A DNA stretch of 64,000 nt from Apostichopus japonicus (lineage: Eukaryota > Echinodermata > Holothuroidea > Aspidochirotida > Stichopodidae), in NCBI RefSeq assembly GCF_037975245.1, contig NC_092564.1, forward strand, positions 13,044,484 through 13,108,483, written 5' to 3'. The position numbers and the translations under genes were made by a program. How positions within the stretch are numbered: position 1 is the stretch's first letter; each line of letters begins with the position of its first letter. The notes under the pieces were generated by a model. It had not been told where the DNA came from and searched no databases. It worked only from the letters and a program-made list of their open reading frames with translations. Shown here one piece after another: positions 7,001-46,336 of the stretch.

Positions 7001-10000
7001 CAGTATCATCTGCAGGGCAATCCCTCGCATGTCATTCTCATGAAGTTGTTTCGTCATGTACATCTGCATCTCGAAAAATTTCTCAAATTCTTCCTCATCT
7101 TGTTCTAACTCCATCTGAGCCAACAGCCCGATAAACCACTCAAAATTCTTTTGATCGCGATTAATCCAAATAAAATTGACCTGAATATAACAGTCGGAAA
7201 AAAAATCGGGAGAAGGAGTTTATGGTTGACTTGAGGGACAAACTTTGTTTCTACAGATTTGTTGTTGACCGTTAAGAAAACACAGTTAGCAACCCAGGCA
7301 GTATTCCTATAACACTTGTAATTTTGGTTACTAAATGCAGCCCTTTGAACATTCTGAGGCTCATCATATGAAGTGGCTGGATAACTTAGTCTAAAACAAA
7401 GACCATTCAGTCAGTTCTTCAGGTTCAACTACAAACACGCATTTAGTAAGAAATGAGAAACAAATCACAGCGCGATATTCATAAAAAAAATTGTTTACCA
7501 ATCTTTTGTTTTTATAGTTTCCGCTACCCTGCTCGCCAGTCGCCACCCACTATTACTGCTTGGTGACCCCACTTTGGGGACACATAGTTTTGGTAACGTG
7601 GCTCTATGTACTCATATTGAACCTTCTTCAAAGATATCTATGATTGAGGACAGTGACATTTGGTAACAATCTGGGCTGACGAGAGGGGGGAAGGGTGGGG
7701 TAAGGGATAAACTATAAGGTACCGTACCGGGCTCAACTAAATGACACAGGGAAATATGGAAGATGCCATTAAAAATTTAAAATGTATTAATATTTTCGTA
7801 GTTTTTAGGGAAAATGGAAGAGTATAACAAAATGGGAATATTATTATCCCGGGGGCCAGACCTGGCTCTCGCCACAATTCGGCGATTCGTGTAACTATCT
7901 TTTAACGGAGGTCTTTATGTGAAATGACTGTTACCTTGTTCAATGTCATGAGCGTCTCCGGAACATCTTCCATCCAAGTGTGGTTACACTTTGGACACAT
8001 TTGACTCGATAACCTGTAGCGGTGCATAATGGATTGCAGAATTGAAGCGAAGGGAGTCACCCCTATGCCAGCCCCGATCAGCACTGCATGTTCGGCATTA
8101 AATATTGCCCTGGTTGGCGTCCCATATGGTCCCTCGATGGAAACCTGGTCGAAAACAAAAGAAAAAATGTTATTGACGTACCTTTCTTGATGGTGGTAGT
8201 AACTATCAGTCATAACTTTGATATTTCTCTGTTCAATGTAGTGGGGCCACCCCATTAATAACGTAGAACGATTCAGTGTAGTGGATGATTAATACATAGT
8301 TAATTAATTAATAATTAATGCAGAGTGATGACAACATGTAGATGGGAAAAGTTATATTTAGATGGTTCCAGAGATAGTCCAGTAGATTGTATTCATAGTG
8401 ATATTGATGGAATAGTGTTTAGACGAAAGATAAATATCGATGACAAGAATATTGATCTTTCTTCTTCTTCACCATATTATCGATTAGATGTCGTATATAG
8501 ATAGACTGCCAATCGATCATCAAAGATCTTAGAGTATCCTGATAAAGCAAATATCAATTAAATACCTTAGCGTGCTAATCGACTAAGTACAGATCGAGAT
8601 GGTATAGTCATGATTACCTAATTATCGACTAGAGGGTCGTATAGTATTGATCAATTTATTATCGATTATATGTATAGTTTAGTTATGATTAGGCTACTTA
8701 ATGAACGATCAAATATTGTAAAGCAAGATCCCTAATCACCGTTGATGATATCACTTTTGGTCATAACTGATCACTTTATTGATTTCGATTGGTAAAGTTG
8801 GTAAATTTTGCTATACAAGATGAGAAGAAAGCAAGCGAAATCATGATGCAGAGCAATGTACTTAGATATTTTACAAAATAAAAATGTATATACACTTAAA
8901 GCAAAAACGAAGGATGTGTTTGGTTTTGTAGCCCACCTGGATCAAACCTTCCAAATTTTCAACACTCGCATCGAATCCCTGTGGTGTGGAAGTTTTTCTC
9001 GACTAAAGATATGAAAGGATTTATGAAAGCAGAAAATAATAAATAAACAACTGAACAAAGTCAAAACTTTTGTTTACCATAGAGTAAACACATCCCTAGT
9101 GGAATAAATATGATAGAACCAGACGTGGTGGAAGAAAGAGGACTGAATTAGGGAGGAGGAGGACAGGGAGGAGGGGAAAGGGGAGGAGGGGGACACAAAC
9201 TCATAGACAGGGCAGTGATTGGTAACATTAAGATGGACGCCATTGTTTAATTTAGATCTTCCGGAATTGACTTCACAAGTTACTAAGCGTAGAAAGCAAC
9301 AACAAGAACAAAAGCATCCTGTGCAGTGGCGGCGCCAGGAAATTTTAGTTGGGAAGGCTAAGGGGGGCTGAGCCAAATTTTTGGGTGGCTTACAAGATTG
9401 AGTGATCGCCGTCCTGGGGGAGCGGTATAAGGGGAGGTGGGCCCCTCCCCTTTTGAAATTTTTCCCAATCCTGGAAAGGCCTACATGCAAAATGGTGGCA
9501 TTTAGCGAGGCTTTTGTCACCTGAAAGTTTCTCCAAAAATATGCATTTTTTTTGTGAGTAACTTTAGTCAAATTAGAATGGAAGATACCAATTCACAGTT
9601 TTCGTATCACTAAAATATTACCTGCTGTGAAAGATCCAATAGCTTTGCTCAATTATTATATCGTGCAATTATTATATCATGCAAAATTATTATAAAAATT
9701 CATCAAAATTTCCATTGCCCATTGTAGCACTGCGTTATGGCTGACAAAATTTGGGTAGGCTATATTGTTTCAATGAGGTTTATTTTTTTTTGCCTATTTC
9801 AGTTGGGGGGGGGTTAATGGGGGGCTGACTACTTCAGTGGGGTGGCTAAAGCCCCCCCAAGCCCCCCCCCCCCTTGGCGCCGCCACTGATCCTGTGTGAT
9901 TCCAGGCTTTGAACGAATCAAATGATTTTGTTTATTTAGTAATCGGGAGCGATCATAGAATAATTGAGAAATTTGTGTTTTCTGGCTAATTGATTGAGAG

Positions 10001-13000
10001 TGGTAAAAATATTAGGCCTACTGTATGTTACTGTATGCGAGAAAGAGAATTACGTCTTCTTAGTTAAGTTAGCAATTTGAAGTTTAATCAACAAAAACCA
10101 GTTAAAAAATGAGTAGTATGTAAAACTTACCTAAAGTTTCATTCTTATATTCCAAATTTAAACAACCTTACAGTTGAAGAAATGTCAGATTGCAGCATTC
10201 TTATTTATACTGACTTATTTAACTGACTGAAATGATCTCGTGGAGGAAACAAGATGAACTATATCAATCATACTTACACGTATGGGCTCTCTTGTTGAGC
10301 ATGTAGAGATCCATACTTACACATATGTGGCTTTCATTTTAAGCATGTAGAGATCCATACTTACACGTATGGGGTTTCCATGTTGAGCATGTAAAGTCCA
10401 TACTTAAACATATGGGGCTTTCATGTTAAGCATGTAGAGATCCATACTTACATGTATAGGGTTTTCATGATGAGCATGTAAAGTCCATACTTACACGTAT
10501 GGGGCTTTCATGTTGAGCATGTAGAGATCCATACTTACACATATGGGGCTTTCATGTTGAGCATGTAGAGATCCATACTTACATGTATGGGGTTTTCATG
10601 TTGAGCATGTAAAGTCCATACTTACACGTATGGGGCTTTCATGTTGAGCATGTAGAGATCCATACTTACACATATGGGGCTTTCATGTTAAGCATGTAGA
10701 GATCCATACTTACATGTATGGGGTTTTCATGTTGAGCATGTAAAGTCCATACTTACACGTATGGGGCTTTCATGTTGAGCATGTAGAGATCCATACTTAC
10801 ACATATGGGGCTTTCATGTTAAGCATGTAGAGATCCATACTTACATGTATGGGGTTTTCATGCTGAGCATGTTAAGTCCATACTGACACATATGGGGCTT
10901 TCATGATAAGCATGTACAGATCCCAACTTACACTTATGGGGATTTCATGTTAAGCATGTAGAGATCCATTCTTACACATATGGGGCTCTCATGTTAAGCA
11001 TGTAAAGATCCATACTTACACGTATGGGTCTTTCTTGTTGAGCATGTAGAGATCCATACTCACACATATGGGGCTTTCATGTTGAGCATGTAAAGTCCAT
11101 ACTAACACATTTGGGGCTTTCATGTTGAGCATGTAGAGATCCATACTTACACATATGGGGCTTTCATGTTGAGCATGTAGAGATCCATACTTACACATAT
11201 GGGGCTCTCATGTTGAGCATGTAGAGATCCATACTTACATGTATGGGCTTTCATGTTGAGCATGTAGAGATCCATACTTACACGTATGGGGTTTCCATGT
11301 TGAGCATGTAGAGATCGTCTCCCTCTCACAGAGGTCCGTCTCTTACTTGACAAGTGCATGGATCGGGCTTGTCGTTGATCGCTTGGCTCTTCAGTTTCAT
11401 CGATCTTATCTCGAATAAAGTCATAGAGTTGGTTAGTCCAGTTACCAGCCGATCGAATGTGCAGAGAAAATGTTCCTTTAAATATGGAAAGGAGCATTGA
11501 TGAATTCTGTAAAATAGCTTTGATCAGTTGGTCAACCGTCATCATCAGTATTGGACCCAAAATTTTAGCAAACTAAATATTGCTAAAACTTTTGATAAGT
11601 TGTTTCCTGGTGGTTTTGAATCTCCAATTTATTTTCTCCAGATATCGAGAATTGTTAATTTAAGACAATTCAAATGACTCAGCGAGGACCAATAATTTGA
11701 GGGTGGCTGTAATTAGCATGTTAAAGTTTGGGCATGAGTGAACATTTGCGGTCTGCCTATATAGATATGACCTTTAAATTCAAATCAATATTACCATTGT
11801 TAATTGTAATTAACATGTGTCATGATGATGGTGGGAGGGGATTGGAGGAGAAAAGGTTCGAGTGGGTGGGGTAAGCAGGAGAGAGGGGAGGGGAGGGGGG
11901 ACAGAGGGGCTATAATGAGGAGACCAGGCCAATAGCAAATAATATGCTAACTTTCATAAATTTGCATGTGCAAAATTAAAGATGTAGCATATCATTTTCA
12001 CACTCACCTTTCTCTTCCGGGGCACTGCTAATAGTGAAAGGGTGCCATTCGTTTGCTGATAATTCTGGAATTTTCACAAACACATAATCTCCTGGTTCGT
12101 AGTCAAAATAAGGTGGTCGAGTGATCTTCAAGTGAGTAACCTACGTCATACAGGTACCACGTAAACAAAACAAAAGCCATTACATCAGAATACGAACAAC
12201 GGAAAACTGACGGGGAAATTCTAGAAATTGGAGATGAGCCAATTAATGTATAGCACAGAATTTGAAACAGTTCCCTCTACTTTACAAATGGTTAAAATTT
12301 TCTTAGTTTGCTCTTTTCCAGAGCAAAAACAACTTAAGTCTGTTTTACAAATATCTCCGTATCGTTAACTTAGCAGGATCAAATAAATGTTTTCGGTTGC
12401 CAGAATATCATATAGGTCTGTACCCGAGTGGCTGAGTGGCTATCATTTTTAGTTAATTGACTATGTAGGTAACCTACTTCCTTTCTTAATGTTTTTCATC
12501 CACTCATTTCGAACAAAGGACATGTATTTCACATATAGTGATCACTCGTAAATGACCTGACAATTATTCAGTTCTGTTAAAATGAGTGTTACATTTAAAA
12601 CTGTTGCAAAGAAGAAGACACATTAAGAAAAGGGCAGCTCAAACTAATTCAATTATTTCCAAATCTACGTCTAGCGGTTTTATCAATATGTATTAATGAC
12701 TTTCCTAATTCATGTTTCATGAAGATACTATATAGCCAAAATATAAGTAAACTTTTAGCATATTTTGGATTACTTACGGTATATATTAATGGTCATTTCT
12801 GGTCAATAATGACTCAGCTTCAATTTTTTTTTTTTTAATTTATTTATTTGTTTTGCCACAAAAGTACAAAGTGGAGGGAAGTCTTCCATAAAGCTTAAAA
12901 GCTATAACAATGTGGAAGACTCCCTGAAGAAAGAAAAGAAAAGAAAAAAAAAATATATATATATATGTGTATAAATACATATACATAAATATAAGTACAA

Positions 13001-26742: not shown

Positions 26743-27389
26743 ATTGTATATCGTGTATTCATTTTCAGTTGGCGATGAAATGAAACGTCCATACATCTCA
26801 TTCATGCAGTTTTATCATTCCTTGCAATAAAACACTTTATTTATTTTGATCATTAACTTCAACAGCAATGCAGTTGATGACAGCATAGACTATTGACAAT
26901 TGGTGCCTTCAAGTCATGATATGCAAGAAAAAAGGTTGAGAATCTTAAAACTTTCGATTTACTTTAGCCACATCATCAATAACTATATAGGCGACAACAT
27001 TGTCGGATTATGTATTTACAGTATATATATAGGTGAGCTAGCTTCTCGCTAATAACTTTTGTAACTAGAAAATGACTACGTGTAACTGCAAAGTAAGGAC
27101 GGTAAATTTTCAAAAGAGTTGTAGACTATACGTTCATTGCACTTTTATAAACTAATAAGCATTCCAACGTCTGCCAAATTTCTGTATTTGTAAAGCCATT
27201 TGCAAGAAAGCAAAGAAGCTCACACACACAAAAGGAATGAATAGGTGTTATGATTGCTATCACAACTATTCAAAATAGTCTGGTACACACGGTACAAAGT
27301 AGGTCGGTCACCCAAACGGCTTTAATCGTACCATATGTTATCTTTTCCCTTTTTGACGTATATTGCGCAATGTGCACCGTTCGTTACTG

Positions 27390-27675
27390 TAAGGGGACTG
27401 TAAGGGGACTGTAAGGGGACTGTAAGTGGACTGTAAGGGGACTGTAAGGGGACTGTAAGGGGACTGTAAGGGGACTGTAAGAGGACTGTAAGGGGACTGT
27501 AAGGGGACTGTAAGGGGACTGTAAGGGGACTGTAAGGGGACTGTAAGGGGACTGTAAGAGGACTGAAAGTGGACTGTAAGGGGACTGTAAGGGGACTGTA
27601 AGAGGACTGAAAGTGGACTGTAAGGGGACTGTAAGGGGACTGTAAGAGGACTGTAAGTGGACTGTAAGGGGACTG
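27390..27675. repeat. 11-bp minisatellite, about 26 units
   Basis: Tandem GGACTGTAAGG-type units with sparse single-base variants (AAGTGG, AAGAGG, CTGAAAG). The length of the open reading frame through it is only a consequence of the repeat (11 bp x 3 = 33 bp). The sequence just after it (GATGTAGAGAGTGGATCAAG) matches the start of duplicated block B at 24232, where the unit is present once. Confidence 0.95.
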
Positions 27676-29044: not shown

Positions 29045-32000
29045 ATGAATCTCCACTTGGTTCTTATAACTTATGCTTGTGTTCTTTGGCATTCATCAGG
29101 CGTTGATCCTACCACCGTCACGGTACAACAAGGACAAATTGTCGGCGAAACGGTCGATTTTAATGAAGATGGGATATCGACACAAGTAGATATATTCAAG
29201 GTATGGCTGTATAACTCATGACACCTCTATAATCACCATGACATAATCATTTGTTCACATTAAAATCTCATGCATATATACTATAAGGCTTAAATGACAA
29301 GTTTGGGGACAACAAGAATATCATGGCATCATTTCAATTATTATCATGCCGGTTTTTACTTAAAATGTTTATGTCGAGCATAACATATGTGCTGTGGAAG
29401 GGTCTGGCGTGGTGTATATATAGGGGGGAGGAATGTGTGATTGACAGGGATAGATATGTTAATGAGCAATATGGTGTTTATATTCTACTCAGCTGCTTAT
29501 TTGTTGTTGACAAACCGTCAACTTCACTTCTCACGAGGTTATTTTATACGGTTTTGACAGCACGTATAGGCCTATGTGTTTCTATTTCACATTAGAACAC
29601 ATTATAGTCCCTATTATCCCATACTGAATGGAACACAGACCATGTACAATCATTTTTAAAGGGTGTGAATTCTCAGTCTCTGTCAATGGCAAGCTGGAGA
29701 GTTGTTGGGTCACGTGTTAAATCATGGCGGTAACTATTAAACCTTAAGATATGATACGCCCATTAATAGGCCCCTTGACTTACACACTAATTCACAAAAG
29801 AAATGTGGTCTTTAAGTCTAGATAGAAGTTCTCACTAGCTAAACGCTACCCATCGCTGGATAGCTGACGAGTAGGCCTTTCATGGCACTATCCATTGTTT
29901 GTATCATGACCATGCAGATATTTTGCTAATTTTCATACGCTGCACCTGGGAGGCCTAGAGGGGGTCTAAAAATGAACCAATTTTTGCACCATCACATGTT
30001 CTTCCATTCATGCTCTTCAACATGCAAGCCACAAGATTACTGCATTTTGGCACTATAAGTTTCTTGATGGAGAACATCCGGGCGGATTGATGGAGACTCT
30101 AATAGGAGTATGCCACCTTCATAAGTACATTAATGGTGTTGTTATTTTAGTTACCTGCCTCCTTTCCCATCGCAAACCTTGCAATGACTTCGACGTTCGA
30201 AATTCGACAGTTTTCTCACAATCTCTATCCTGACCATTATTTCAGTGAAGCTTTCTAGAATGTTTAGTCGTTACAGATAGGTTTTAATTTATTTTCCGCA
30301 CAACAGTGCTATCTCACGATGTGTGCAAAGCTACATGTCTATATAGTCCTATACCTGAAAATAATCAGAACAAAAGATCATATATAACGAATACTACATT
30401 ATTATTTGTTTTTTCACATAAAACTTTCCCCCGAGAAACTGAGAGCATACTGTATTTGCAAGGGCATCTATAAGCAGGCAGTGGCGGCGGAACCGGGGGG
30501 GCTTGGGGGGGCTCAGCCCCCCCAATAAAAAAGTTGAGGGGGCAAATGCATGATAAGCCCCCCCAATATTTACCAAGGCTCCGAAACGTGCATCTGCCCA
30601 TTTTCCAATGCATACTTGTCGATCTGTCCGATGCACACTATATAGGTGTAATAAGTTTAGTAATTGCTGGGGGACCCTCGGCCCGTCCCCTGGCTATAGA
30701 CCACATTGTCACCCCAACCGCGTCATCACGCCCCGTGAAAAGTGGAAGCAGTGAGTGTGAGTACCAGTAAGCGTAACACAACTTTGTCTTAGGCCAATGA
30801 CTTGCCTCATTTCAGCCAGTTCTCCAACATCACCTTACTTAGTGCCGGAGCGTCCATATATACAGTCAGGGGGCGGATGCCCCCCCCCCCTGAAGACTCA
30901 AATGGACTGCTGGCGCCCTTTTCAGCTTTTCACTATACTTTTTACTTATTCGCTATTATTGACTATTTTATTGCGCTCTCATATACCTATTGACATTTGT
31001 CATATTCTGTTGGTGTAATTTTCCGACAAAATGGCGACGACACCTATTTATTCTCCGTTTATCTGCAAATTAGCAAGGCCCGGAAAGGGTCATTTCCTGC
31101 AATCTAGGGAGTATGTTTACTCAAAATTTTTCTGTACGCTCCGCGCCAACCTGTGGTGGCGCTCCGCTTAGATAGTGTCGAGAGCGCCCCTACAGACCAT
31201 TCTTGCCCCCCCGACCAATACCCCTAGCTCCGCCACTGTCCTTACTACACTCAAAAACGTCTTTGCGAGTACACTACGAGTATAATAGCTACTCTCTTAA
31301 AACACCATCGAATATACAAATTACAATGCTTTTACAAACTTTTACGTGCAATCTGAGAAATTGCAGACTTGAGACCCATATTTTAGGGCTAGGTATTCGC
31401 AGCATAAAACACACGGGAAGTGCCGTGTCCGGCCATCTGGGGGTTTGAAATAACCCAAAATTTTCTTGTACGCTCCGCGCCAACCGATGGTGGCGCTCCG
31501 CTTAGATAGTCTCCACACATTAGCCCCCCCAATAATTTTTCCGTTCCGCCGCGCCTGTAAGCAGGTATAGCTGTTAGAGTAGCAGCTCCCTGATATAAGC
31601 ACATATAGGCCAGTGAACATAAATATCAAATTACTCGTATTGTGGATAACGTTTTCATTTCACTCTAATTTTCAGGGTATTCCATTTGCTGAACCTCCTT
31701 TGAGATTTGCCGCCCCGAAACCGAAGGAACCGTGGGTCGGTGACTGGAATGCGACCTATTTTAGACCCGCTTGTTATCAGATTCCAACGAACAGTTGGAA
31801 ACCATGGGTATTCCTTGATGTTGATGAGGATTGCTTATACCTAAATGTCTATACACCAAGTCCGAAAGTAAGAATAAATATGTTTTGTAAAATCTACTGG
31901 TAGGTCAGGTAACCAATTTTTCTTAGCCCGCTATACTGTATTTCGGGAATTTAATCGGTTACGACATTCTTAACGTAAATACATGCATGGAGATGCTCTG

Positions 32001-35000
32001 GTTGACATTATTTTGGCATCATATATTGGTGAAGCAGTTAATATAAAGTATGGGAATTTTGTATATATGTTGTCAGAGTCTAGCAAGACAATCGCTGTGC
32101 CTACATAAGAGAGTGGCTAAACAACCGAGTTAGCAGCCAGACACGTTGGAAATTACCTATACGACCATAACACGTGGATTTCGTTTGTATTTACTTCATT
32201 TACGGGTTAACGACTTTGTCGGGACCAAAGGCTAAACATCACAGACTATATAACCAGGTACGTCCGTCTGCACCAACTCTATCTATATTGTACTGATTAT
32301 ACATAGTTGCAGCTCGTACACAATTATATTTAGCTCGACGCAGACAATGGAGGATAAAATTACTACGTGTTTGTTATTATAGCTATTCTTGCATCGCAGG
32401 CAAGTTTATACTTCAAAGCGAACATACCGCAACAGGTATATCTTCTTTTATATAGTATATGTCAACAACCTTCAAGCTCAAATGTGGACCTTAGTCAACC
32501 AGAATTAATTGGTTGTTGTTACTCTACCATGCAGAAGAAACAAATGAAAATCTGAATGGTTGTTTGTATATCAGAACAATGATTCGGAATCTTTTACCTT
32601 TTTAATTTTAGCAAGCGGTCGAACACAAATTAGGGCGGGGGCACTTACGGTACTTCATTATCAAGTTACCTCTGGCATTCCTTTTACTGCTTTTTCTTTC
32701 AATCCATGGCTTACAACTTGCAAGTGCGACACTTAAAGTGCCATGGCTATGAACAAAGGGCGTCAATACGTATAGTCACAGGTAGGGAGAGGGGGGGGAC
32801 AGAATTTATGCATCCAAACACACATACATACACACATACACACATGCATACACACATATACATATAATATATGCATGCATGACTTAAAAACTCCCCTATA
32901 AAATCGGTTACAGAAAGATGCTACTGGTATTAAATTAAATTGCTTTCTATAACCACGCGTTGTATTCTCTATTCCATCTCATAATCAATTATTTCCCAAG
33001 CTTGAAAAAAACATCCAAAGCTACCGTACTCCAAAACACAACGCGAAAATCGTATTTACAGATAATGCCATGCAATTACTAAGCGGTGGGAATAATGACA
33101 AAGAAAGCTATCGATGGAGGCTTTGTAAAAAACAGAAAACCTCGAGAAAATTTAGAAGGATCATTGAACAATGACCAACAGGATAGGATGCAGCCACACA
33201 ATTGTTCTTGTCTTTTCCAAGATGACATAAATTATTTGAATACAAATTTGAGTAATAGAAGTATGTACTTGTAAAAAAACAGTCGCTTATGCCTATGATC
33301 AGAAGACCCACATTCAGATTGATAAACCGGCACACATACCGGCAAGAGTAGCCATTGGCTCCTAATGATGGAGAAAAAACAATTTAGGCTCCAGCTTTTA
33401 CAACTGGTCTGATAACCATTATTAGAGTTGCAACTCAAACTTAAATGAGGTGAAAGGTATAGACGTCAGGAAATAAAATGTTCTTCATATCGTAATCTAA
33501 TATCGAACATAAACCCAACACGAACCAATACATGTTTTACTAGGATTTTGAAACGTGCGTCTTGTGGACGATTTTGCTCGAAAAAGAGTTTGAACCCAGC
33601 ATATACAAATTTGCGTCCGCCATACACTCTTGTGATAAAACCTCAAGCCAAAGAATTGTTATAATATGACCTTTGATGATCCCATTGCTGTCACGTATGG
33701 TAGAGGTCTATATACACAAAAACAAACAAATTATTAAGAACAAAACAGTTGCAGTACATATTAAGCAAATGTATAAATTTGAATGTTCAGACAAATGTGA
33801 TGTTTATCCTGTTCTGGTAGACTTAGCCTCATCTAAGTGTATAAAATGCACTGAATTGTTTTACTATGTACCGTATATGTAAACAAAACTACACTCCGAT
33901 TCTGATTAGCTGATCGTTGTTGGCTCGGAAATAGCAGTTTCCGTCCCCTTAAACATGCTTACTGACCCTCAAGCCACATCTATTCGCATTTGAAATTAGA
34001 CGGTCGTGATGACTTTCTGTAATATTTACAGATTAATACACGTAATTTAAAAACAAAAGATATTAACTTTGATGTGATCCCAAAGCTAGTAAGTAAATTT
34101 CCCAACATTTCGGCCCATACAGCTGGTGCACAGTTCTCGGTTAACCGGTTTCAATAACATGAGCGGATGAGAGCAATTCAAAGGCGTTTCTAAATATAGG
34201 GAAAGGTAGATAGGATCTCAGTCTATAGATGTACTCCCCATCATGCAGGATCAGTCCATGTACTGTGTATAGATGCGACAAGCATGTCCTGACTTTTATA
34301 CCAGCCATTAATTTGTACTGGGGAGAGGGCGGTCGTAATAATTTTCTTGACTGTAATATTACAAATGGTATTCTGGTATGGGAAAAATTAACACAACTTT
34401 AAAATAAGATAAGTTGAAAGATTTTTTTCTTCATATATTTGTCTAGTTCCGAGGATATGGAAACAAAGCAAAAAACATTGAACTTTATCACTCCTTGAAC
34501 AAACCAACTTGTAATGAAACCATAGCATTATATGTACAAGACTTCGAAATGACATTTGCAGAGCCACCGACACCGGAGTGGGGGCGGGGCTTTCTCCCTG
34601 ACAATTTTCAAAGCAATGATTTTCAAATAGAACTTTTGTTAACATGTAAAGTTGGTGAAATTTGACAACTTTTTTCTTCGCCTCAGGCTGTCTCCCCCCC
34701 CCCCCCCACATAAGAAACCCGTATCGGGGCTCTGATTAGTACATTAAAGAAGGAGTGTAAAAGTCTACTTCTTTAACGTATGAAACAATGCAGAAAATAT
34801 GACAATAATCTGATTTTATTTTTCCATGTATTACGAATCAATTTGAAACAACCCCCACGACCACGACTGCGCTGTTACTAATGTCGGGTTACCCAGTATT
34901 TCGTGACTTTGACGTTGTATCACGTTCAGAAAATAACCGTTTGCACTGTTGCCCCGTGCAGGGGCGTCAATCCGTAGTCACATGTGGCGGGGGAGGGGGA

Positions 35001-35833
35001 GGAATTTATACATACAGACACACATGCATCCGTATATACATATCCATACACACATACATGCATAGGCCTACGTACAAACACAAATGCATACATATATATG
35101 CACAAGGGCGTAGGAACCGGGGGGCTGGGGGGGGGGGCGCCAGCCCCCCAGTGAAAAACATGGGGGGCGGAAGTATCATTCCGCCCCCCCCCGCTCCGCA
35201 AGTCAGAAAACCCCTTTTTCATTTCCAAATGAGAAAAAAATCTCATTTGGAGCCCCAAATTGCATTTAAGGCCAGGTGAAAATGCAAAATTCTTTACAAA
35301 ATGGAGTGGGAGTTGAAAAGCGCTATATTGCACCAAATTGCATCTGAGGCCACCTGGAAATGCAAACAAAAATCCAAAGGGGAGGGGGTCACCCCCTCCC
35401 CTTAGACCCCTCCCCCAGGCCGGCCATCAGTCTTCAGCCCCCCACTCAAAAGTACCTTCCTACGCCACTGTATATGCATAAAATATAGGCCAATGCATGA
35501 CTTAGAGCTCCCCTATAAAATCTGTTACAGAAAGATGCTACTGGAAATTAATTAACTTCATTGCTTTCTACCCACAACGTTTTATTCTCTATTCCACTAA
35601 AGTAATCAAATTTTACACAAGCTTGAGAAAACATTCAAAGCCACTCCAAAACACAAAGCGAAAAGATTTGTTTACAGATAATGCCATAATAACTATGGTG
35701 GTGGGAATAATGACGAAAGAAAACTATCGATGGAGGCTTTGTAGTGTTTACAGAATCGTATTCGGGTTCCTGGGTATTTATAGATATATATCTCTATATC
35801 TCTATACATAGATATATATCTATATGTATATAT

Positions 35834-35864
<31 letters not shown>

Positions 35865-35883
35865 TATATATAGATATATATAT

Positions 35884-35930
<47 letters not shown>

Positions 35931-38900
35931 CATATATCACTCAGACATTATGTATGCATATTGTGTGTGTTATAGATGGAACACGTATTGCGTGCTTGTA
36001 GCATAGCCAAATGAGCCGTCTTGGACAGCGCATGCGGTACAAATCCATCATTCATGTAAGAATTTTATATAGAGAGGAATATAAGAGTTGTAACAGTTTA
36101 TGACCCAGTACACGTAAATGGCTTAAGAATGTGCACAGGTGCGGGGGGGGGGGATTTGATATTGTACCTCCCTATCCCAACCCCCCTCACCCCTCAGGAT
36201 TGACGCCCATGCTGTGAATAGGTTACATGTTAATGCTTTATAAATGTAACTTTTAAATTCATTTTACACTTCTTCAGCCGGATAACGCCCCGGTCATGGT
36301 GTACATACACGGAGGTTCATATACCACTGGTACTGCCATGGACGTGGACTTGTCGGGCGTACCAATGGCAGCTTTCGAAGGTGTCATCACCGTGGTCATA
36401 AATTATCGTCTCAATGTATTCGGATATCTATCGACAGGTTAGATATTGGCCTAGCTATATGGTTTCCATCGACCAACCAGGAATCTCTGACACTCAGTGT
36501 TGTATCAGCGGAATAAGGCATCAATTTAGGGGTAGATTGTGATTAGGTGGCGAGATGGAGGATGGGCGGGGGGAAGGGGGGGGGGTCGCGAAGTTACATG
36601 ATGACGTTGGTACAGATGGATTGTAAATAAGGGAAGGATGTATATCGATATACCACGGTCCTTGTACCAGTGGATAAAATATGTGTTGTCTTATTTATGT
36701 TGGGGTTTTGGAGGAGGGGGGGGGGGGTGAATCATATACCCTTATGCACAACTGCCACTATCGAGTGATCATGTTCCAGCTTAAAGAAACTTTTGAGTTG
36801 AGTTGGGTTAATTTTTGCCTAATTTTTATCTTATGAGGATTTTTCATAAGAAAGTATTCCATTAGCCTGATTTTACATGGGTGTATAAGACGGCCGATTG
36901 TTGGCCCCAATATACACGTGTGATTGCAAATAGTTCTTATTCTTCTTCACTCATGATCTTAACAAAAGGGGATGACGCTGCACCTGGAAATTTTGGATTC
37001 CTTGACCAAGCTGAGGCATTGAAATGGGTGAGAGCTAACATCCAAGGTAAGTACTAGTTAGTACGGGTTTTGCGAATGTCCGGCAACGAAGAGGACTGTG
37101 TGTTTGAAAGAAAGGGGTGTGTATAGGTGGGGGGGGGGTGGAAGGAAGTTGCTAGGGGATGCTGACGATTTGTAAACTTGTATCAATAAAGCGAAGTGAA
37201 ACAAATTCACTGGACCATTGAAATTAGGAAGTCATTTATTTAGCGCCATCTTTAACCATCAATTATAAGAGTCACCCATACACAACCTTCTCTTCGTAGT
37301 CTGTTGATGCCCGCTCTATCAATCTATATAGTTTCTTTATATTCATTATAAATAGCTTTTGGAGGCGATGACACCAGGATAACAATTTTCGGAGAAAGCG
37401 CTGGTTCTGGGAGTGTCGACTTTCATCGTTTTTCAAAGTATAGCAGAGATTTCTTCGACCAAAGTATTCTACAGGTATAGCTTATAGTCAAGAAGTTTTC
37501 TTATATTTTAGTATCAATAATCATTAAATAAGGAACGTGAACTGACTCAACTCCGATAAGTCGAGCATCGCCGCCCGGACCTAGTTTTCGATAATCGTCA
37601 AGACTGAATCCCATACAAACTGAACGAATGATGAGCCTATATATATGCGCAACGGTTGTTTAAAGGCTTGGTGCTCGTTTAGGTCACGTGCAAACCTATT
37701 TGGTCGTGAGCCAGCCGCCGCACACTGACACAACTGATCATGACCAGCCGACTCAACTCAACCGTCGTAACCTAGTATTCGATGGTCGTGAAACCCATCC
37801 AGGTGTCGCACCACCATCAATTGCTCCCATTGACTCACAAACTAAACTCGTCATTTTCCAAGACCGCTAAAGCATAGATATAAGTTTTCAATTGACATAT
37901 CCTACCCACATATGATTAGCTGATGGCTTGGGCTATTACAGCACATTCAACTTTTGCCACCATGACGGTTTAGATTTTGAGCTAGAAGAGCTCAAAGTTT
38001 ATCATAGTGCTCCCCAACCCATCTGCCAGCTGTCGCTGCGGAATCTTCTTGTTTCACCCAAGATTTCCAAAATACCTTAAATCACCTTCAATACTCTAGA
38101 TTTTATAACCACCAGTAGTTGATGTCATCCTCTTCAATATCCAAGCATCAAAAAGAATGGTGATGACTCAGAAAATGCCAAAAACTCAACACAGTTGGTC
38201 ACTTTAGGGCTATTTCCCGACAACGGATAACCCCTCAGGCGGAGGTGCACTACTCTAATTGTGGCGCGATACCTACACAGTCTTAAAAGTGACCCCCACC
38301 CCCTCCCCCACCCCCACATCAATACGACAGATGAGCGCACACGACTACTGCTTTCTATTAATGACCGGCGATCGTTCGGGTCACGTGCAAAATATACTTC
38401 CCCGTGATTGGTTACATATCTTAAGACTGTTCAGTTTTTGTCGTGTAACGCCGCACATGTCCGACTGCTACTATCATCGGGGAAAACTACTTGACGGTTT
38501 TTTTCTTTCTTTCATAAATTAGGAGCTTTTTTTCTGCCTCGTAATGGGGGAAAATGTTCCCTTGGTTGATTATTAAAAGGTAACCGTTTGTTGAGAAGTT
38601 AAAGACAAATGAAATTAGAAAGTGTCCTTTGATGAAAATTATTTGAATAAATGTAATTTAAAAGAAAGACATCCAAATACTGGAATTTGTGGTATCAGCC
38701 GCAATCAGATGATATAAGGTAACTACCAATTTAATGCAATCTGATGCTCGATTTAGTCTGCCGCAATAAACCGCGGTTGGAATAAATGCTTTAGCATACC
38801 AGTAAAGCAATAACAATCATGAAAATCCTCTTCCCTCTAGTGTGCCATTATATATATATCCTCACTTATACCCTATCCCTTTTTCTTCTTCTGGTTTTTG

Positions 38901-41900
38901 TCAGAGTGGGTCTGCAATTGCTTGGTGGAGTTTTGTAAGCGATTTAGAGGAAGAAAGAGCCCAAGCCTTTTCACTTGGAGAGAAAGTCAATTGTGAAGCG
39001 GAGGATACTGTTCAACTAATAGACTGTTTGAGGACTGTTGAAGCAGCCAGATTATATTTAGCGTATAGTTTGGTAAGTGAAAGAAGATTTATTCATTAAT
39101 GCACATAGCAATTAAGGGCTGAAAGTAATCAGAAATAGCCCCAAATTTATGGATGCTTTAACTGCTGAAAGTTTTTTTTCCGGAGTACTTTGCCGGAGGT
39201 TTTACTTTATAAATTAACCTTAACTTTGAAGAGTGTTCAAGTAGATCAATGTATAATTCATTTTTTTTTTTAAATGGCGGCAATAATATTTTCAGAGGTA
39301 CAATCAAAAGTGACCGTTTATTTGACGTACTAGCATATCTGGCAGCAATACCAGCAACAAACCTAGGTTACCTATAGCCAAATATTATAAATCTATGTGA
39401 TAAAGATAACTGCCATGAACAACTTCCCAAAACAGATTAAGGAAAACATTATTCCATTGGGAGATATCGCGGATTGAAATGATCCTAGCTTGACACATCA
39501 AGTATAAATTCATATCAAATCATCGAGCCACATGTGCTTCAATGCCTATATGATTTAATTTACTTATTGCATTTGTTTATTCTGGAATGGAAATGGCCGG
39601 GTTTTGGAAATGATGAATCTGAAATATTTTAATTCCTAACATGACCATAACAATGACATTGGTTTCAATATCTTGAAAATATATTAAAATGAAAACAACG
39701 AGAAAGTAAAATGTTTCTGATCGTAGCGGTACTATGACGTCACAGATCTACACAATGACAGTTCCCCGACACGACCGGTATTTTAGGATTTCTGCCAAGC
39801 GCAGCAAGATTTTTTCTTATCTGTTTGGGGAGAAGGGGAGGGGGGGGGGGTTGGGTTTGTTCTTCAATAAACATCTCTGTCATATCAGTCAAAGAACCGG
39901 TTGGATCATTGAGCCCAGTCGGCCCCTCGTTATGGTTTTTTCTATGCTTGCAGAACGGCTATAATTGGTGGCCCAATCTTGATGGAGTATTTCTGGATGA
40001 ATCTCCTTTTGATTTGTTGGCCCGTGGTGATGTGAAAGATGGTCCGATGATGGTTGGCTACAACAGGGACGAAGGGACACTGATAGTTCCAAGTTTCTAT
40101 CCGGATTACGTCGGAAAGCAGGAACCGCCCTACATACCACGTCAAAGCTTTGATAGCGTAAGTTAAATGAAACCTGGTACTAAAGTTGTAATAGCATTGT
40201 GTCATTTCATGTGTCAAAGTTCATATAAGAATAAATATCCTCTCAGTAGGGAGTTGATATACGGATACTGCTCACATGGGCTAGTATATGCAAAGTGGAG
40301 GTTACGAAAAGAAAGCGTTCGATCGTTATAAAATTCCTTTCGAATAACGTTATGACGTTTATCATTATGCAGCGTTGTGAAATCTCTATACCGAATGTCG
40401 TCAGTATAAGTGACTAAATTCACTTCAAATGCATTTCCTTCCAAATTCCACGAATTGTAAAATTTATTTACCACATTGCTGTGTAGTGTAGTTCAATATT
40501 CACAGAGAATCACTAATTTCACTATATGGTTGCTTTCACACTGAGCGTGTTTCCTATGTAGGTACTACAGCAAAGAGTAAAGTTAACTCCCAAACTGCCA
40601 GGATATTCTCTGTGTGTTATTTTGATACATTTTTCTTACAGGATTTTCATCCATTTTGCAAAACTGTAAATTATAAATACAAGCTATAGGCCCATACCAG
40701 GTGCGTATCCAGGGGGGGGGGCGTTGGGGGCGCGCGCCCCCCGGGTAAGGAAAAGAGGAGAGAAAAAAAGAGAAGAAAAAGGGAAAAGGAGGGGGAAAAG
40801 AAAAGGAGGAGAGGAAGGAAGGGAAAAGAAAAAGAAAAAGAGAGAAAAATGAGAAAAGGAGGGAGTAGAAGATAGCCAAGACCTCGGGAAGAGAAAGAGG
40901 AACAGTCATAGTTAAAGCGCTGATCCCTATTATATACACAGGGTAGCCAGTGACAGATCAAGGATTACGGAGCGGGTGTGCGCCTCACCCTACCCCTTAC
41001 ACCGACAACTCCATTTTTGACGTTTCCATATTTCCTCTCTCACTAATGTATCTATATAAATACTATATATGGCCTATCATAACGCGCGTGTGTGTATGGA
41101 CGCCTTAAACAATTGTACGATTGTGCAATATGGAACCAACTGTGGCTGATCTTGAACTCGACCGAGTCGTCGGGGAACATGACGCATTTCGGGAAGGGGG
41201 CGACCGCCCCCCTCCCCCCGAGCAAATTTTCTTTAAGACATCGCTAGTAATTTCAAAATAGACAATGCTTAGATACAAATTACAAGGCCTGAGAAGTGTC
41301 ATTTCCAGCGATCTGGGAGGCATTTTCGGCCAAAATTTTATTGTACGCTTCGCGCCAACTCATGGTGGCGCTTCGCTTAGATAGTTTGCCTACCGGCTTC
41401 GCCCCTCCCTTGGCAATTACTCGCTACACGCCTGTTCGAGTTTGTAAAGCAAAGAGCAGATATAACATCGTATCAGTGAGCATTGAAATGCATGTTCCAC
41501 CATGAACAGTCTCAAAAACTGTCTATGTGTGTAGTCAAAGGCGTAGGAGCCCAATTTGATTTGGGGGCTGTAACGAATAAAAAGGCCAACATTTTTCGCG
41601 CGCAAAGCGCGCGTTCAATACATCGATGCCAATATCATACAAGCAAGCATCGGTCATTACATTGCATGGCATCGTGTACCTTACGGTCCGTGAAAGTTAC
41701 ACAGTATACCGCCGGATGCTAATGTAAACAACCAAATGTCTTATGTAGATGGAGAAAAAGCATACAGATCCATTTATGTCAAAACTCTCTTTTACAGTAG
41801 TACTGTCGGTCAAGCTTACCACTTTATTTTAATTACCAAGGAGATCATTTTTAAGCTATTCATTGCTATTTATTTTTCTTTAAGTAGGTGCCCGAAGAAA

Positions 41901-44900: not shown

Positions 44901-46336
44901 TAGCAGAGCATCTTTATCCGACCCCCTGGGTGTAGGTCAGATGGAGTGGCCTAGTTTTACCATACCGGAGCTGACCTACAAAGAATTATCCCCGGAACTA
45001 CGACTAGGAAGAGGAATCAAATCAGATGAGTGCGCCTTCTGGGGAATTTACTTGAATGAATTGAGTGGTACATTAGGTCAGTGCTTTATTGAATGACTTG
45101 CGTAGAACATTGTGTAACAGTATTACTTGAAATACTTCAGTGGTGTACATTTAGGTGTTACCTGAAAGACTTGAGTAGCGTATTAGAGTCAGTGGCATGT
45201 TATATCACTATTATTACTTGAAAGACTTGAGTGACACATCAGGTAAGTGTTACTTGTATGCCTTGAGTAGCATATTAGAGTCAGTGGCATGTTATATTAC
45301 TATTATTACTTGAAAGACTTGAGTGATATATCAGATGTTACTTGTATGACTTGAGTAGCGTATTAGAGTCAGTGGCATGTTATATTACTATTATTACTTG
45401 AAAGACTTGAGTGATATATCAGATGTTACTTGTATGACTTGAGTAGCGTATTAGAGTCAGTGGCATGTTATATCACTATTATTACTTGAAAGACTTGAGT
45501 GATGTCAGGTGATACTTGTATGACTTGAGTAGCATATTATAGTCAGTGGCATGTTATATCACTATTATTACTTGAAAGACTTGAGTGATATCAGGTGTTT
45601 CGTGTATGACTTGAGTAGCATATTATAGTCAGTGGCATGTTATATCACTATTATTACTTGAAAGACTTGAGTGATATCAGGTGTTTCTTGTATGACTTGA
45701 GTAGCATATTAGAGTCAGTGGCATGAGTGCTATATCAGGTAAGTGTTACTTGTATGGCATATTATAGTGCCTTGAGTGGCATAGACTTGAGTGGCATATC
45801 ATAGTGAGTGGCATAATATACAACTATATCTTTTGAAAGATGGTAGTGATACATTAGGTAAGAGCATTACTTGAAACACTTGAGTGGCATATTTGGTAAG
45901 AGTGTTACCTGAAAGACCTGAGTGGCATATTATTATATGACATTACTTGAAAGAATAGAGTAGCACATTAGGTAAGTGTGTTGCTTGAATAACTTGAGGG
46001 TACATTAGGTATGAGTATATCGATAATCAATACCAAATTCAAATGGAGCTGTTGGTGGAGAATTGTGACGTCAACTGTTCAATCCAGCGTAATAATGACT
46101 TTGCTCTTTCAAAACGATTATGCTGTATCAAGGCATCATGTATATGAACACAATTGCTTTTGGTTTTGCAAATCAGTGAGTTCTTTTTCACAAGTTTCCC
46201 TTGAATTTTGTTTGTTTAAGGATCAATGAATGAAGCCGAGTTGCAATGGAGGGAGGATTACCTTTCATGGAAGGATGATCTCAAGGGCTGGAGACAGCAA
46301 TTTAGCCAGTACCAGGAGAAGGATATGTGTCCATAA
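29045..46336 (+). CDS. Secreted carboxylesterase/cholinesterase-family protein, complete, 11 exons
   Basis: Exons: 29045-29200, 31676-31867, 36278-36437, 36969-37046, 37356-37474, 38905-39072, 39954-40157, 42800-43041, 44270-44452, 44895-45076, 46221-46336. Phases agree and give 599 residues, normal for the type-B carboxylesterase family. An N-terminal signal peptide of about 19 residues ([19 protein letters not shown]) implies secretion or the cell surface. The alpha/beta-hydrolase signatures are present: oxyanion hole HGGS, nucleophile elbow FGESAG (Ser210), YNRDEGT (Glu331) and [12 protein letters not shown] (His457), so an active esterase is expected. Cys pairs 85/105, 265/276 and 412/546 fit the three cholinesterase disulfides. 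The Trp after CLYLNV that binds choline in acetylcholinesterase is Tyr here (residue 111), so a general esterase is more likely than a true acetylcholinesterase. The substrate is unknown. No C-terminal membrane anchor is evident. Confidence 0.95.
30479..31557. mobile_element. Non-autonomous hAT-like element (1079 bp) with 8-bp target duplication, carrying a nested relative
   Basis: The left end CAGTGGCGGCGGAACC pairs with the right end CCGTTCCGCCGCGCCTG. TAAGCAGG flanks both sides exactly (30471-30478, 31558-31565). Both ends turn into long G/C runs. A hairpin-forming module (GCGCCAACCGATGGTGGCGC) lies near the right end at about 31470-31505. A second element is nested at 30840-31238. There is no transposase. 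Confidence 0.87.
30840..31238. mobile_element. Nested hAT-like element (399 bp)
   Basis: The left end TAGTGCCGGAGCGTCC and right end CTAGCTCCGCCACTG are imperfect inverted repeats. The flanks ACCTTACT and TCCTTACT match at 7 of 8 bases, consistent with an old 8-bp duplication. It carries its own copy of the GCGCCA/TGGCGC hairpin module near 31140-31175. Confidence 0.65.
32750..33125. repeat. Dispersed repeat, copy without insertion
   Basis: Begins GGGCGTCAATACGTATAGTC and contains CCCCTATAAAATCGGTTACA and GCTATCGATGGAGGCTTTGT. It matches 34958-35745 in the same orientation over its whole length once the hAT-like insertion in the other copy is removed. Confidence 0.85.
34958..35745. repeat. 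Dispersed repeat, copy interrupted by a hAT-like element
   Basis: Begins GGGGCGTCAATCCGTAGTCA and contains CCCCTATAAAATCTGTTACA and ACTATCGATGGAGGCTTTGT. It matches 32750-33125, interrupted at 35103-35470. A sequence resembling the reverse complement of its start (GGATTGACGCCCATG) occurs at about 36198, so the full unit could extend to about 36212 with inverted ends. Confidence 0.8.
35103..35470. mobile_element. Non-autonomous hAT-like element (368 bp) with 8-bp target duplication
   Basis: The left end CAAGGGCGTAGGAACC and right end CTTCCTACGCCACTG are imperfect inverted repeats. TATATGCA lies on both sides (35095-35102 and 35471-35478). The inner ends are G-rich and C-rich. The related copy at 32750-33125 shows the locus without the insertion. 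Confidence 0.87.
35780..35930. repeat. TA/TATC microsatellite
   Basis: Alternating TATATC and TA units over about 150 bp. Open frames on both strands (runs of Tyr-Ile) are artefacts of the repeat. Confidence 0.95.
37475..38904 (+). other. Carboxylesterase intron 5
   Basis: No repeat or exon is recognisable. The word GGTCACGTGCAAA occurs twice (about 37682 and 38380) with unrelated flanks. Confidence 0.5.
39073..39953 (+). other. Carboxylesterase intron 6
   Basis: AT-rich with a G run at 39836-39850. No element or exon seen. Confidence 0.5.
40698..42639. mobile_element. Composite hAT-like element (about 1.9 kb) with nested insertions
   Basis: The left end CAGGTGCGTATCCAGG and right end CCTGGATACGCGCCTG match as inverted repeats at 15 of 16 bases. 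Only CATAC is shared by the flanks, so the target duplication is partial. Inside are a polypurine tract (40744-40870), two copies of the GCGCCA/TGGCGC hairpin module (about 41345-41385 and 42555-42598), a possible internal right terminus near 41430 (TACACGCCTG) and a complete nested element (41536-41960). It lies in carboxylesterase intron 7. No transposase is present. Confidence 0.72.
41536..41960. mobile_element. Nested hAT-like element (425 bp) with 8-bp target duplication
   Basis: The left end CAAAGGCGTAGGAGCCC and right end GGGACCTACGCCTATG are imperfect inverted repeats. TGTGTAGT flanks both sides (41528-41535, 41961-41968). It is related to the element at 35103 (shared GGCGTAGGA start). 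It is inserted within the composite element at 40698-42639. Confidence 0.82.
43042..44269 (+). other. Carboxylesterase intron 8
   Basis: No repeat or exon recognised. Short inverted similarities around 43800 (CACGATATCATGGAAAAGTT) and 44040 (ACGTAATCACAAAACTTTCC) hint at an old foldback element but were not resolved. Confidence 0.4.
45077..46010. repeat. 86-92-bp minisatellite derived from the end of carboxylesterase exon 10
   Basis: The unit is a dimer. One half reads TTACTTGAAAGACTTGAGTG and ends in a variable ATATCAG(GT). The other reads TTACTTGTATGACTTGAGTA followed by GCATATTAGAGTCAGTGGCA. The word TATTAGAG/TATTATAG recurs at 45181, 45273, 45361, 45449, 45535, 45621 and 45707 (spacings 92, 88, 88, 86, 86, 86), then the array degrades to about 46010. 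Both half-units resemble the last 30 bases of exon 10 plus its donor (ACTTGAATGAATTGAGTGG, then TACATTAG|GTCAGTG). Confidence 0.9.

Follow-up and report, generated by a model that had tools for sequence, protein, structure and literature searches.

A 24-unit minisatellite across an exon–intron junction of NOX5, of the mirage kind described in amphioxus

Which splice donor is used when an exon runs into a minisatellite whose units carry near copies of that exon's own 5′ splice site? The question is raised by an array in the 64-kb window studied here (the whole stretch of DNA that was analysed), at 10269-11316 on the minus strand, to which Tandem Repeats Finder assigned a period of 44 with 24.0 copies (score 1606) and, over the same coordinates, a period of 131 (score 1669). 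The preliminary description had proposed a minisatellite of 24 units of about 44 bp, and these figures confirm it. Read along the minus strand from 11316 to 10269, the units are 43 or 44 bp long, each made of about 35 nt resembling the end of an exon and then GTAAGTATG, which resembles the start of an intron. Alignment of the units on their donors gave 24 donor positions, from 11281 to 10277, with GT kept in 23 of 24 and exact GTAAGT in 19 of 24, reproducing counts made earlier by hand. The altered donors are those of units 5 (GTTAGT), 6 (GTGAGT), 8 (GTAAGA), 10 (GTCAGT) and 21 (TTAAGT), while unit 9 keeps GTAAGT and differs in the bases after it; over the nine columns of GTAAGTATG there are seven single changes, six in units 5-10 and one in unit 21.

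On the minus strand, GTAAGT occurs 19 times in the 1,048 bases of the array and 19 times in the 62,952 bases outside it, a density that is not due to chance, but duplication alone would give the same excess. Among the matches listed for a 617-base piece of the array against the assembly (671.6 Mb in 35 contigs), the only one was the array itself, and within the 64-kb window the 20 matches listed in a search for dispersed unit copies were of 10-14 bases only. Rfam (at the gathering cut-off) and a tRNA scan returned no hits in the 64-kb window.

The array lies in a gene that had been taken for NOX5 on the minus strand, an assignment borne out by homology. With pieces of human NOX5 as queries, tblastn found the exons for the EF hands, the membrane part and the dehydrogenase part following one another along the minus strand between 19.6 and 4.0 kb, and the joined translation from the FAD-binding part to the C-terminus has NADPH oxidase 5 as its best match in the PDB (6sz5; phmmer E 2.7e-107, chain residues 412-719). 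Homology thus extends over both the FAD and NADPH lobes as well as the EF hands. Three exons assigned by homology frame the array, all on the minus strand: one encoding the FAD-binding part (12008-12140), one of 194 nt (11282-11475; exon 9 in the preliminary description) and the next downstream (7935-8144, also placed by reading frame). By the coordinates, the 194-nt exon lies between introns of 532 and 3137 nt. Its last 35 nt (11316-11282) make up the exonic share of unit 1, so that the array does begin inside a NOX5 exon, as first described, and the homology-supported donor CATACGT|GTAAGT falls in unit 1 at 11282/11281, the position originally given for it. This donor with its intron start, GTAAGTATG, occupies 11273-11281 in phase 0, and the exon 8144-7935 likewise begins in phase 0. 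Joined through donor 1, the protein aligns with human NOX5 over 310 residues, with human IKCYIDGPYG across the junction; by this alignment and by family background, the residues of unit 1 are placed at the end of the inter-lobe loop and in the strand preceding the GPYG motif. Judged by sequence homology, then, unit 1 carries the real NOX5 donor. At 17 other NOX5 junctions, a set that does not take in the ex7 donor or the 5′ exons, we found no comparable local copy, with best scores of 15-26 vs 96 here, and the ex5 and ex10 acceptors, at 26 and 24, lie above the 95% shuffle level of 23 and below the shuffle maximum.

With a coding exon on one side, an intron after GTAAGTATG on the other and the junction 11282/11281 inside it, the array is a tandem repeat spanning an exon–intron boundary, with splice signals in most of its units. 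Structures of this kind are known as mirages in amphioxus, where Adh3, the globins BflGb6 and BflGb9, TnC and PGBD5 carry tandem copies of exon–intron boundaries with splice signals in many units (PMC3087553, PMC3902484). In those papers their copy number is reported as unstable and splicing as undisturbed, and the Adh3 units, at 10-72 bp, take in the size of the NOX5 unit, whereas the globin units (about 150-160 bp) are longer than the 43/44 bp of the 24-unit NOX5 array, which moreover sits in a different gene. A further, non-structural difference is that the host here is not a cephalochordate, its mitochondrial code being that of echinoderms or flatworms. On a 16,099-base contig encoding COX1, 10 of 11 AAA codons stand, in the printed alignment compared by eye, at Asn of a mammalian-type COX1 (7o37). 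Reading AAA as Asn is a feature of mitochondrial table 9, the code of echinoderms and flatworms, and amphioxus is not known to use it. On these codons an echinoderm is the likely host, and amphioxus is excluded. Five more COX1 pieces lie on another contig (G000:C29, 14745-31219) and are possibly nuclear or extra mitochondrial copies.

Human genes offer more distant parallels. The IFI6 gene (6-16, G1P3) has a minisatellite of 26 copies of a 12-bp unit at the end of exon 2. As in the NOX5 array, several splice donors are thereby offered to one transcript (Turri 1995; PMC4526556), and two downstream units are said to make isoforms, whereas the 43/44-bp unit of NOX5 mostly breaks the frame. Tandem repeats in human segmental duplications include minisatellites at exon–intron boundaries, with units averaging 30 bp, that can form new introns; they average 4 copies and lie mostly inside exons, and a long row of donors is not described in the sections available (PMC2812944). 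The VNTR6-1 of TERT is an intronic tandem array with a 38-bp unit, discussed in a splicing context and not said, in the portion of the source at hand, to copy the exon's own donor. In the literature searched, the name mirage for exon–intron boundary repeats appeared in the amphioxus papers only and no report of a minisatellite in a NOX5 intron was found; within that literature, a junction array has no precedent in NOX5 and probably none in the host's phylum.

What the copies could do to the protein depends on the reading frame. With each of the 24 donors joined in turn to the exons that follow, a full-length protein resulted for donors 1 and 3 alone; the other 22 positions led to a premature stop or a wrong frame. 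Donor 2 (11230-11238) adds 43 nt and shifts the frame; donor 3 (11186-11194) adds 87 nt, an open stretch that owes being in frame to a base missing from unit 2, and would add 29 residues. On paper, donor 3 is thus the single productive position among the other 23. These outcomes bear on a reading that we regard as unlikely, in which donors 1-3 compete, splicing at donor 2 and later donors leads to decay, splicing at donor 3 yields a NOX5 with 29 extra residues before the NADPH-binding lobe, and the array thereby sets NOX5 output or calcium sensitivity. It would draw on the open frame at donor 3, on the equal U1 pairing of most array donors described below, and on the human IFI6 isoforms, in which two downstream repeat units are reported to serve as donors (PMC4526556). 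Weighing against it, 22 of 24 donors are unproductive, the equal-donor minigenes described below use the upstream site alone, and when units 2-24 were shuffled donor 3 was productive in 82 of 1000 orders (at least two productive donors in 83 of 1000), so that its open frame may be luck.

Donor strength cannot decide the choice, since most array donors are equal in pairing with U1 and mid-range for NOX5: in 19 of 24 (donor 1, -7.4) the duplex energy with the U1 5′ end falls between -7.3 and -7.4 kcal/mol, within a span of -4.2 to -12.6 kcal/mol for seven other NOX5 donors. Donor-like words upstream in the exon, at 11346 and 11329, pair more weakly (-4.5 and -4.4). Secondary structure was considered as a selector of donor 1 and rejected, as 22 of 24 donors are predicted to be poorly accessible and nothing in the folding sets donor 1 apart; the predicted open donors are those of units 8 and 9. 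Five minigenes, each carrying a pair of identical strong donors separated by 52 nt and introns of 365 nt, used the upstream donor exclusively, and introns longer than 250 nt fall in the exon-definition class (Carranza et al., PMC9225289). Both introns beside the 194-nt NOX5 exon are of this long class. The same source reports that the upstream donor is preferred in 60% of human events with matched strengths, and the downstream one in about 60% of events overall, before such matching. The minigene donors (CAG/guaagu) are stronger on the exon side than those of the NOX5 array, which have T at -1. In amphioxus, mirages are reported to be regularly spliced by RT-PCR (PMC3087553, PMC3902484).

The reading that we consider probable is that the NOX5 array is a mirage that arose by duplication of the junction, with donor 1 used nearly always and the others mostly silent. 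The exon's last 35 nt, with the nine intronic nucleotides that follow them (GTAAGTATG), would have been duplicated in tandem, and the duplicated junction would have spread to 24 units by slippage or unequal exchange. If human rules apply, the 194-nt exon would be recognised by exon definition, and because donor 1 is nearest to the exon's own acceptor it is expected to be nearly always the one used. The other 22 donors bearing GT would be mostly silent intronic copies, with downstream donors giving at most traces of out-of-frame transcripts and donor 3 possibly a form with 29 more residues; copy number would probably vary between individuals with the protein unchanged. An initial proposal, that a tuned set of donors produces length-variable FAD-domain loops, is conceivable from the sequence and is not supported: besides the coding outcome, the donor columns carry no significant extra conservation, and the equal-donor minigenes and amphioxus mirages predict use of the first donor.

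The history of the array can be partly read from its units. Units 12-20 form three 3-unit blocks of 131 bp (10443-10835, minus strand), the first two of which (units 12-14 and 15-17) match base for base over 131 bp, and the third (units 18-20) shows 3 differences from units 15-17. Identical blocks of this size point to recent growth, and on this pattern array length is likely to be polymorphic between individuals. As to selection on the donors, the two ways of counting point in opposite directions. Singleton changes fall in 5 of 144 donor cells vs 12 of 912 elsewhere, towards more change in donors (Fisher p 0.07), whereas all non-consensus cells taken together are fewer in donor columns than in the rest (odds ratio 0.47, p 0.11); over the 24 units, no significant extra conservation of donor columns relative to the rest of the unit was detected, a result that leaves room for some constraint on them.

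Two further explanations bear on these data. The array might act as a cluster of U1 snRNP sites that keeps premature cleavage and polyadenylation away from the long intron or helps the exon to be recognised. Such a role could draw on GTAAGTAT, which matches the U1 5′ end over 8 bases and occurs 18 times in the 1048 array bases vs once on both strands of the remaining 62,952. We consider it very improbable, given that the donors are without significant constraint, that polyadenylation hexamers are not enriched in the intron (6 in 3.1 kb vs 41 in 20 kb, 24000-4000) and that triples of bare GTAAGT across the genome do not exceed a reversed-word control (8652 vs 11302). Least probable of all, to our mind, is that the assembly has inflated the array from a shorter tract or collapsed it from a longer one. 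One amphioxus mirage did seem misassembled in a draft genome (PMC3087553); here, however, the units differ in patterned ways, by a mean of 10.6% between pairs, and four other genes carry a like structure.

Those four genes came to light when the genome was searched for closely spaced triples of a full donor (MAGGTRAGT), with the reversed pattern as control. The search gave 289 triples vs 158 for the control, and a separate one for triples of CAGGTAAGT gave 29 vs 39; as matches overlap within arrays, we claim no firm enrichment. The first 100 or so of the 289 MAGGTRAGT matches listed were grouped by eye into 25 arrays, for all of which the upstream flanks were retrieved; the NOX5 array is absent from them because its -1 base is T. 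Among the listed arrays, the first unit is a homology-backed coding exon end in 4 of 25 (L030, L028, L023 and L043), the homology continuing up to the residue next to the donor. These are exon ends of YJU2 (PDB 6zym, 2e-12, residues 1-44 of 44), of a NAP1-like gene (NAP1L; PDB 11bd, 1.6e-14, residues 2-49 of 49), of an ATP13A-type ATPase (PDB 8iem, 2.7e-7, residues 1-60 of 60, with a weak Pfam match at 0.017) and of FERRY subunit 3 (FERRY3; Pfam 7.1e-11, residues 6-41 of 41, with no PDB hit). The exonic nucleotides common to the first two donors number 18 of 18 in YJU2, 29 of 35 in the NAP1-like gene, 23 of 28 in FERRY3 and 9 of 10 in ATP13A, a case that consequently rests on few exonic bases. 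On the homology of their exon ends, mirages recur in this genome.

The other listed arrays are of several sorts. Two of the 25 adjoin an open frame without a homolog (L025, and L036, whose best match is VPS13C at E 0.16); the spacing of their first units, 33 and 30 nt, would let an additional donor extend the protein in frame by 11 or 10 residues. One (L026) is intronic by eye, with a TIL-domain exon ending about 80 nt before it, and one (L045, 1-911) is a donor-like array that immediately precedes the acceptor of an exon of RanBP1 type (Pfam 7.7e-22) lying on the opposite strand. The remaining 17 of 25 are low-complexity, dispersed or unclear. It is doubtful, though conceivable from these loci, that junction minisatellites repeatedly serve here as a way of changing genes, in five genes or more, with some of the arrays, such as NOX5 at donor 3, being read as extra in-frame protein that varies with the individual's array.

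Minisatellites as such are common: a 190 kb sample of 19 stretches contained 12 distinct arrays with a length of 150 bp or more and 4 or more copies, and in two of them most units have GTAAGT. That a repeat contains a donor word is accordingly no surprise in itself; what sets the NOX5 array apart is its position at the junction. The window itself holds other repeats. Between NOX5 and a cholinesterase-like gene, 27386-27675 comprises 26 copies of an 11-bp unit, ACTGTAAGGGG, with 24 plus-strand occurrences of GTAAG; the idea that it is a second mirage was set aside, as no exon was recognised by eye at its edge. Pieces of the neighbouring cholinesterase/carboxylesterase-like gene lie at 31826-40163 on the plus strand (EDCLYLN at 31826, GESAG at 37391), and 39759-40163 matches Pfam COesterase at 1e-05 and 25.2 bits, under the cut-off of 27. 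An 86-bp unit is repeated in 6.5 copies with 93% matches at 45153-45725, and a weaker array follows at 45833-46015. With the larger arrays masked, the two strands of the window together have 15 occurrences of the word AGCCCCCC (complement GGGGGGCT), 42 times the expectation from base composition.

The NOX5 array is a structure of the kind described in amphioxus, similar to that of human IFI6, and its mechanism is ordinary as far as seen. With 24 near-identical donors, 23 of them bearing GT, in a gene of known structure, it is a natural test of how the spliceosome chooses among equal sites. In the literature searched the name mirage belongs to amphioxus, yet five genes of this genome carry such structures, and the phenomenon looks wider; arrays at exon junctions may thus be a source of intron and isoform change that is open to study.
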